Assembly: GCF_030282845.1 (NCBI RefSeq) | Contig: NZ_JASTWE010000026.1 | Coordinates: 1 to 51,046 of the forward strand | Direction: 5' to 3' | From: Pseudodesulfovibrio pelocollis | GTDB taxonomy: Bacteria; Desulfobacterota; Desulfovibrionia; Desulfovibrionales; Desulfovibrionaceae | DNA: 51,046 nt | Part shown: positions 19,521 to 20,866 of the stretch, piece by piece | How the letters are laid out: each line of letters opens with the position of its first letter | Position numbering within the stretch: the stretch's first letter is position 1 | Made by a program: the position numbers and the translations under genes | Notes under the pieces: generated by a model | Database searches by the model: none | What the model was told of the DNA's origin: nothing | The model's input: only the letters and a program-made list of their open reading frames with translations

Positions 19521-20231
19521 ATGTCCAGATTCCGCCAAGTGAAAGGAGACCTGCGGGCCATCCTGGCCGACGAAGGCTGGCAGGCCCGGCTGGAAGACCT
19601 TGGGGCATGGCCCCCGGGCATCCTCGTGCCGCCCCTGCTCTCGCTGCGCCTGGACCGGGACGAGGCGGTGCGCTGGCACTCGGCCACGGCCTTTGGCCTG
19701 ACTGCGGAGCGCATGGCCGAGGCATCCATGGAAAAGGCCCGGATACTCATGCGCACCTGCATGTGGTACATGAACGAGGAGTCGGGCAACCTGGGCTGGG
19801 GCATCCCCCACTTCATGGGCGAGGCCATGGCCCGAAGCGAGCGTATCGCCCTTGAGTTTCACAAGGTTTTCGTGTCCTACATCTTCTGCGACGAGGCCTG
19901 CGACGGCAACTATCTCGATCATCCGGAGCTGCGGCGCGACGTGTTCTGGGGATTGGCCCGGCTGGCCGAGGTCCGGCCCGGGCTGGTGGCCCACGGCGAG
20001 CGGTTCCTGGCGGCCGCCCTGGCCGAGGAAGACGCCTTCAACCGGGCCCACGCGGCCCGCGTTCTCGGCCTGATCGGCGCTGCCCCGGCACGCGAACCGC
20101 TGGAGGGGCTGCGGGACGACCCCGCGCCCGTGCGCACGTATCTTGACCGGGAGCTGATGGACACCACTGTCGGCCAGATGGCGTCAGGGGCACTGAGCGC
20201 GCTGAATGCGCCGGTACGACGGGAAGGGTGA
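19521..20231 (+). CDS. DVU0298-like (HEAT-repeat-type) protein
   Basis: 236 residues, cytoplasmic. It resembles DVU0298, a protein found with sulfate reducers whose role is unknown; the resemblance is from memory and not checked. Visible features are an Arg/Glu-rich N-terminus (MSRFRQVKGDLRAIL), RWHSATAFGLTAERMA, the conserved-looking MWYMNEESGNLGWGIPHFMGEAMA, SYIFCDEACDGNYLDHPELRRDVFWGLARLAE, and a C-terminal segment like a HEAT repeat (NRAHAARVLGLIGAAPAREPL). GGGAGG precedes the ATG. A terminator upstream separates it from the TPR gene. Confidence 0.7.
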   Translation: MSRFRQVKGDLRAILADEGWQARLEDLGAWPPGILVPPLLSLRLDRDEAVRWHSATAFGLTAERMAEASMEKARILMRTCMWYMNEESGNLGWGIPHFMGEAMARSERIALEFHKVFVSYIFCDEACDGNYLDHPELRRDVFWGLARLAEVRPGLVAHGERFLAAALAEEDAFNRAHAARVLGLIGAAPAREPLEGLRDDPAPVRTYLDRELMDTTVGQMASGALSALNAPVRREG

Positions 20232-20270
20232 TCGGGCCGGGCCGGCCAGCGCGGACGGCCCGGCTCATCG

Positions 20271-20591
20271 CTAGAAGTTCATGATCTTGTCCGCCTTGCA
20301 CATCTCGTCGTAGAGAAACTGCATGTTGGAGAGCTTGACCGTGTCTGATTCATCCACGCCGTGGATGGCCATGCACTTGCCTCAGGCGACGAGGACGCCC
20401 TCGCTCAAGCTGAAGACTTTGGCCTGCTCGCCGATGGGAAACCGCTCGCTGTCCCCGGCCGACAGGTCCACGGCCGGGCCGTTGAGAAAGAGGGTCACGC
20501 CCTCGCCCGCGCTGAGCAGGAAGTTGCCATAGCGCACGGCGTTCCATTTCACTTCAGGGTCCGTGCTGGTCAGGGTGATAAGTATATGCAT
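20271..20591 (-). CDS. DsrE-like selenoprotein with in-frame TGA (probable Sec70)
   Basis: Reading through one TGA (20384-20382) gives an intact 106-residue DsrE/YchN-like protein: MHILITLTSTDPEVKWNAVR, ALRYGN-like core, GEGVTLFLNGPAV, FSLSEGVLVA, then U-G-K-C and MAIHGV, ending TAG at 20271. DsrE-like proteins carry a Cys in LxxCxxC at this place and handle persulfide sulfur; here TGA falls exactly on it, forming a U-x-x-C redox pair. A SECIS-like hairpin starts 14 bases after the TGA. AAAGGAG precedes the ATG, and a promoter lies just upstream. The 36 codons after the TGA keep protein-like composition. DsrE-like selenoproteins are known from marine metagenomes. Conventional gene calling would give a truncated 69-residue protein. 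Confidence 0.85.
20351..20367 (-). promoter_or_regulatory. Bacterial SECIS-like hairpin
   Basis: On the minus strand a perfect 7-bp stem CATCCAC / GTGGATG closes a loop of GGC. The loop lies 21 bases after the TGA, inside the 16-37-base window known for bacterial SECIS elements, and begins with G as is typical. It is within the coding sequence, as expected for bacteria. Confidence 0.75.
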
Positions 20592-20625
20592 CCGCCGCAA
20601 CTCCTTTGTTTTTCGATTGATGATG

Positions 20626-20654
20626 TCTATAGCAAGGTCGTGGGGAGAGGGCAA
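20626..20654 (-). promoter_or_regulatory. Promoter of the DsrE-like selenoprotein gene
   Basis: Minus strand TTGCCC (20654-20649), 17 bases, TATAGA (20631-20626). Transcription would start about 28 bases before the ATG at 20591. Confidence 0.6.
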
Positions 20655-20742
20655 CACCGCCTGGAAGCCGCAGGCCCCGCGACGCGATGGCACCCCCTCT
20701 CCGCCAGCCCGGCAAAAAAGGGAAAAAATGTCCGCGCCGCGC

Positions 20743-20771
20743 TTGACAACCGGGCGGCTCGCGGATAGATA
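20743..20771 (+). promoter_or_regulatory. Promoter of tRNA-Val
   Basis: TTGACA at 20743-20748, exactly 17 bases, TAGATA at 20766-20771. The mature tRNA begins 21 bases after the -10. Confidence 0.8.
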
Positions 20772-20791
20772 TTCACTCCGCTTCGACGAGA

Positions 20792-20866
20792 AGGCGCGTA
20801 GCTCAGGGGGAGAGCATTTGCTTGACGTGCAAAGGGTCGTGGGTTCAAATCCCTCCGCGCCTACCA
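20792..20866 (+). tRNA. tRNA-Val (anticodon GAC)
   Basis: 75 nucleotides with encoded CCA. Acceptor AGGCGCG pairs fully with CGCGCCT; D arm GCTC/GAGC with a 7-base loop; anticodon arm TTTGC/GCAAA with loop TTGACGT, giving anticodon GAC at 34-36; variable loop GGGTC; T arm GTGGG/CCCTC with loop TTCAAAT; discriminator A. The T stem has one U-U mismatch (second pair) and position 37 is G, both slightly unusual. Followed by an intrinsic terminator. Confidence 0.93.

Follow-up and report, generated by a model that had tools for sequence, protein, structure and literature searches.

The DsrE-like gene and its in-frame TGA

The window analyzed here is a 51,046-nt stretch of Pseudodesulfovibrio pelocollis DNA (contig NZ_JASTWE010000026.1). 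On its reverse strand, at 20271..20591 (-), lies what is very probably a selenoprotein gene, in which comparison with related sequences points to an in-frame TGA being read as selenocysteine (Sec). The open reading frame (ORF) starts with an ATG at 20591 (-) and runs for 69 codons to a TGA at 20384-20382. Translated with that TGA (20382..20384 (-)) as Sec70, it continues for 36 further codons to a TAG at 20273-20271, giving a DsrE-like protein of 106 residues, the same continuation that a first-pass annotation of the window had claimed. U-G-K-C occupies residues 70-73, and its Cys73 is encoded at 20373..20375 (-). Direct reading of the sequence also located the ribosome-binding site that had been claimed, AAAGGAG at 20601..20607 (-), 9 nt 5' of the ATG. 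The accompanying claim of a strong promoter was not borne out, as a sigma-70 promoter scan of 20150-20800 gave 0 matches. A terminator scan around the gene detected nothing.

A Pfam scan of the 106-residue protein matched PF02635 (DsrE/DsrF-like) at 24.7 bits, above the cut-off of 22.7, and 13 of 13 diverse relatives matched the same family at E 0.01. NCBIfam gave one match, at 11.7 bits versus a cut-off of 575. The predicted fold is DsrE/YchN/TusD-like, with 20% identity to Escherichia coli YchN (1jx7) in a structural alignment. A profile from alignment A1 (the contig-scan relatives described below) found nothing in the PDB at E 1; one from the mixed alignment A4 found YchN at E 4.6e-4 and aligned Sec70 with YchN Cys78, in agreement with the earlier proposal that Sec occupies the place of the redox cysteine in DsrE relatives. 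When the P. pelocollis genome was searched with PF02635, two other DsrE genes were listed and the gene at 20271-20591 was not among them, possibly as a result of being split by the in-frame TGA. YedF is encoded elsewhere in the genome (196 bits).

Relatives and their distribution

A scan of contigs yielded 11 relatives with 42-81% identity to the window's protein (alignment A1). All 11 have TGA in the same column, and in all 11 loci the alignment continues past it. Whole-genome profile surveys covered the family (288 genomes, E 1e-3), the class (348 genomes, E 1e-12) and a draw from the phylum (395 genomes, E 1e-12). Counting every match, including Cys forms and fragments, the gene was matched in 60/288, 72/348 and 71/395 genomes, respectively. 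The TGA form was present in 56 of the 60 family genomes; three of the remaining four have the Cys form only (G015, G121 and G277) and one has an N-terminal piece only (G153). Homologues with Cys at the TGA column, which the first-pass annotation had suggested looking for, amounted to 16 distinct sequences among 144 aligned rows, a count that under-samples Cys forms because the search profile derived from Sec forms. Among the survey matches, we noticed no homologue that merely terminates at the TGA.

Decayed copies of the gene exist among the relatives. In one genome scored as carrying the TGA form (G152), the gene is split by a frameshift. Matches in six others (G462, G595, G301, G292, G332 and G446) have extra stops or are fragmentary, and a piece in G537 has CGA in the Sec column. 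The match in G446 halts at residue 69, and the remainder, TGA included, continues in another frame (L231).

Several genomes hold more than one DsrE-like sequence. In G034, residues 71-106 are encoded a second time, in a partial 3' repeat of the gene situated about 200 nt downstream of the complete copy (L099, C1:4107134-4107241). Two genomes, G213 (L048/L064) and G226 (L060/L067), each have two distant chromosomal copies with identical protein sequences. There is also a second group of DsrE-like Sec sequences (L097, L098, L229 and the Sec rows among L174-L218; 37 distinct stretches), which are mostly 103 residues long, mostly have U-G-V-C, and have a hairpin of their own whose loop is often GGTCTG or similar. 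In L173 (G715, 305-1057), L199 (G645) and L177 (G588), a Sec-type DsrE gene comes directly after one of Cys type, both on one strand, although the Cys-type match in G645 spans residues 1-76 only. The tandem arrangement in these three genomes suggests Cys/Sec heteromers. The Sec protein of G715 has an N-terminal signal peptide apparent by eye and may be exported.

Constraint and pairing downstream of the TGA

We examined 53 distinct, full-length, gap-free Sec rows (truncated rows were excluded) for coding constraint past the TGA. The post-TGA frame was free of stops in all 53, with stops in 47 and 34 rows for the other two frames. The mean pairwise ratio of nonsynonymous to synonymous proportions (pN/pS, uncorrected) was 0.32 before the TGA and 0.49 after it, and by these comparisons the coding sequence past the TGA is under purifying selection. 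Synonymous difference, likewise uncorrected, was 0.64 before the TGA, 0.25 in codons 71-80 and 0.71 past codon 80. The low value in codons 71-80 indicates that the hairpin codons are constrained at silent sites too.

This hairpin, of the bacterial selenocysteine insertion sequence (SECIS) type, has 7 bp and lies at 20351..20367 (-), with its 5' arm at 20367-20361, a GGC loop at 20360-20358 and its 3' arm at 20357-20351. It reads CATCCAC-GGC-GTGGATG and begins 14 nt past the TGA. A 25-nt piece folded in isolation reached -9.3 kcal/mol (z -2.4; 4/200 shuffles equally good), and a 44-nt piece was unremarkable (z -1.0; 35/200 shuffles). Since the single-sequence fold is weak, the case rests on comparison of orthologues. 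Numbered from the T of the TGA, the helix joins positions 18-24 to 28-34. Across 52 distinct orthologues, pairing holds in 98.1% of the 364 cells of this 7-pair helix; 22 cells are changed on both sides, and three pairs show such changes. Neither value was equalled by any of 500 shuffles; the slid controls reached at most 53.6% paired and at most 5 double-changed cells. The hairpin drawn in the first-pass annotation, with its loop and spacing, is therefore upheld by both pairing and covariation.

Position 19 is the first base of codon 76, and its partner, position 33, is the third base of codon 80. This pair is A-U in 26 of the 52 orthologues, C-G in 14 and G-C in 5, and is broken in 7. Ile at codon 76 tends to occur with GAT at codon 80 and Leu with GAG, and 4 of the 6 Val rows have GAC, so that an Ile-Asp/Leu-Glu correlation in the protein arises from pairing in the RNA. 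In a wider set, 81 of 88 rows have a standard 19-33 pair. For these rows a minimum of 20 changes in pair state is needed, and 18 and 17 changes for the individual bases.

In bacterial SECIS elements, the loop lies 16-37 nt from the codon and a G is among the first two bases of the loop. Stems of at least 5 pairs that conform to this permissive rule were found in 80/81, 35/37 and 2/2 Sec sequences of three subgroups, which were set ad hoc. One row nested among the Sec rows (L091) has TGC for TGA, keeps 5/7 pairs with a GCT loop, and comes from a genome that still has selA. The Rfam model SECIS_1 was silent across the genome, a result that is uninformative because its control matched in 0/14 genomes. 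A scan of 20200-20700 with all of Rfam gave nothing.

Selenocysteine machinery

The P. pelocollis assembly (3.43 Mb, 138 contigs, listed completeness 99.99%) contains selA (613 bits), selB (374 bits), selD (323 bits, with a single in-frame TGA of its own) and a tRNA-Sec, which scored 82 bits with a covariance model and was called by ARAGORN as tRNA-SeC with anticodon TCA. The four components selA, selB, selC and selD whose presence was to be checked are thus all there. The same assembly has dsrA (599 bits), which likely marks the host as a sulfate reducer, in support of the earlier guess. Among the selA matches listed, the DsrE-like gene lies about 3-4 kb from selA in two genomes of one genus (G033 and G034), and selA is on the gene's contig about 18-27 kb away in three others (G233, G030 and G238). 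G118, one of three TGA-bearing genomes in which neither selA nor selB was found, is assembled in only 3 contigs and listed as 95% complete.

The second cysteine of the motif

For the residue at +3 from Sec, removal of 14 of 174 aligned rows (fragments, extra stops or missing columns) and merging of duplicates left the 144 distinct rows. The 128 distinct Sec rows have C (105), L (11), S (9), A (2) or R (1) at this position, and the 16 distinct Cys rows have C (15) or A (1). A quick tree, from which both columns were left out, requires at least 6 changes between C and non-C. The claimed U-x-x-C motif holds for the window's gene, which has UGKC, but the second Cys is not universal, being replaced by L, S, A or R in 23/128 Sec rows. 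Among these aligned relatives, Sec appears as the commoner constant and the partner Cys as optional, which suggests that Sec may be able to work without a second Cys.

Relation to known systems

A 2005 study of the Sargasso Sea (PMC1088965) reported DsrE-like selenoproteins with UXXC, consistent with the first-pass statement that they are known from metagenomes. Desulfovibrio vulgaris was listed with one in 2006 (PMC1794560), DsrE 1 and DsrE 2 appear in the Global Ocean Sampling set (PMC2398784), and reviews of 2022 (PMC9312934) and 2026 (PMC13188914) include the DsrE-like selenoprotein, the latter as 'predicted with high confidence'. The window's gene shares with the published proteins, of which WP_014524487.1 is the D. 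vulgaris member, the Pfam family PF02635, a Sec that replaces the first Cys, the U-x-x-C motif and a bacterial SECIS. It is a further member of that family and no new kind. The published tables seen give the DsrE-like motif as UxxC only, and in the parts of the DsrE-like selenoprotein literature available to us we met no mention of S, L, A or R at +3; the surveyed relatives add UxxS, UxxL, UxxA and UxxR forms.

Other DsrE-domain proteins differ more. YchN has Cys where the window's protein has Sec. The DsrEFH/TusBCD sulfurtransferases are three-subunit systems, whereas the window's gene is alone, with no linked subunit genes found within 5 kb. YedF (TIGR03527) likewise has a DsrE-like domain, with CGXC, and is linked to selenium metabolism in the text seen of PMC5322559. 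It has an N-terminal SirA-like domain and a Cys, in contrast to the window's protein, for which Pfam detects no domain besides DsrE over the 106 residues. For D. multivorans, also a sulfate reducer, the part seen of PMC5109826 reports a gene with the name dsrE and that 'DsrABCDE' is formed.

Discussion

We conclude with moderate confidence, from the sequence comparisons above, that the gene encodes a genuine DsrE/DsrF-like selenoprotein in which Sec70 would most likely act as a single sulfur-accepting nucleophile rather than as half of a dithiol redox pair. The selenoprotein part of this conclusion, which upholds the first-pass idea of a hidden DsrE-like selenoprotein, draws on the conserved TGA, the covarying hairpin, the machinery and the fold. 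SelB with tRNA-Sec would decode the TGA, directed by the hairpin just downstream. Sec70 would then occupy the place of the reactive Cys in YchN and, by fold, in DsrE/TusD. Its selenolate could take up sulfane sulfur or break an S-S bond, forming a Se-S intermediate that would be handed to an acceptor thiol. In proteins with Cys73, such as the window's own, that residue could close a Se-S bond to free the product; relatives that lack it would need an outside thiol for this step. The second Cys is not universal, and this favors a lone sulfur-accepting Sec, like DsrE Cys78, over a dithiol pair.

The main competitor is a dithiol-type oxidoreductase in which a reversible Se-S bond between Sec70 and Cys73 would serve to reduce disulfides or peroxides, on the model of thioredoxin-like UxxC proteins. 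We regard this as possible, though doubtful. The window's gene does have UGKC, most Sec rows retain C at +3, and in the parts seen the published tables place DsrE-like proteins among the thiol redox selenoproteins (PMC1088965) or give them as UxxC (PMC13188914), but the repeated changes to S, L, A or R and the DsrE-like fold speak against it. It is very improbable that the TGA is a true stop, leaving a 69-residue protein or a decayed gene. The standard reading does end there, some relatives with further stops or frameshifts look decayed, and neither selA nor selB was found in three genomes with the TGA form (G118, G269 and G165; estimated completeness 95, 96 and 81%). However, the protein, its frame and the covarying hairpin are conserved past the TGA in tens of species, the Cys forms read straight through, and the G118 gene (L075) bears the full hairpin even though selA and selB were not found in that genome. 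Decoding as some other amino acid, by a code change or suppression, can be practically dismissed: we found no support for it, the genome has tRNA-Sec, selA, selB and selD, the counterpart of this residue in homologues is Cys, and a SECIS-type hairpin lies 3' of the TGA.

Several observations weigh against the account we prefer, with those three genomes among them. The co-occurrence of selA is a weak test of Sec decoding, as selA was found in 50/56 family genomes with the TGA form vs 179/232 others (Fisher p 0.044). A sign test for the 19-33 pair on supported branches only gave 4 to 0 (p 0.125), too few to reach significance. Rule-conforming stems also occur in 5/16 Cys sequences, including a 6-bp stem in the Cys form L167. 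Retention of Cys at +3 in 105/128 Sec rows favors the dithiol type for most members, the window's gene included, and the +3 tree is poorly resolved, with 66/141 inner branches unsupported. In the AlphaFold model, made with Cys in place of Sec, residues 78-83, just past Sec, have predicted local distance difference test scores below 50. Finally, among ORFs of at least 70 codons within 5 kb of 48 loci (including four Cys forms and two of the second Sec group), we found no conserved neighbor beyond same-genus synteny. The best true synteny covered 6/48 loci, the window included; a cluster of 9 loci headed by an ORF read by eye as a sensor kinase, and smaller clusters, also emerged. Without a conserved partner gene, the surroundings name no acceptor.

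A broader proposal can be framed, which we hold to be unlikely as a whole: the family would be a selenium-based sulfane-sulfur carrier of sulfate reducers, in which Sec70 replaces the DsrE persulfide Cys78 and works alone, its Se-S adduct feeds DsrC or an acceptor like it, and UxxC is only one state of a Sec site that has repeatedly lost and regained its partner Cys.

Because the standard reading ends at the TGA and no NCBIfam model picks up the full form, such genes are easily missed. TGA forms occur in many genomes of the phylum, and the supposed resolving Cys can be absent. This turns the generic label of 'redox motif' into a testable question: is Sec the lone sulfur-accepting residue? If so, selenocysteine would serve sulfur transfer in this family rather than disulfide reduction.
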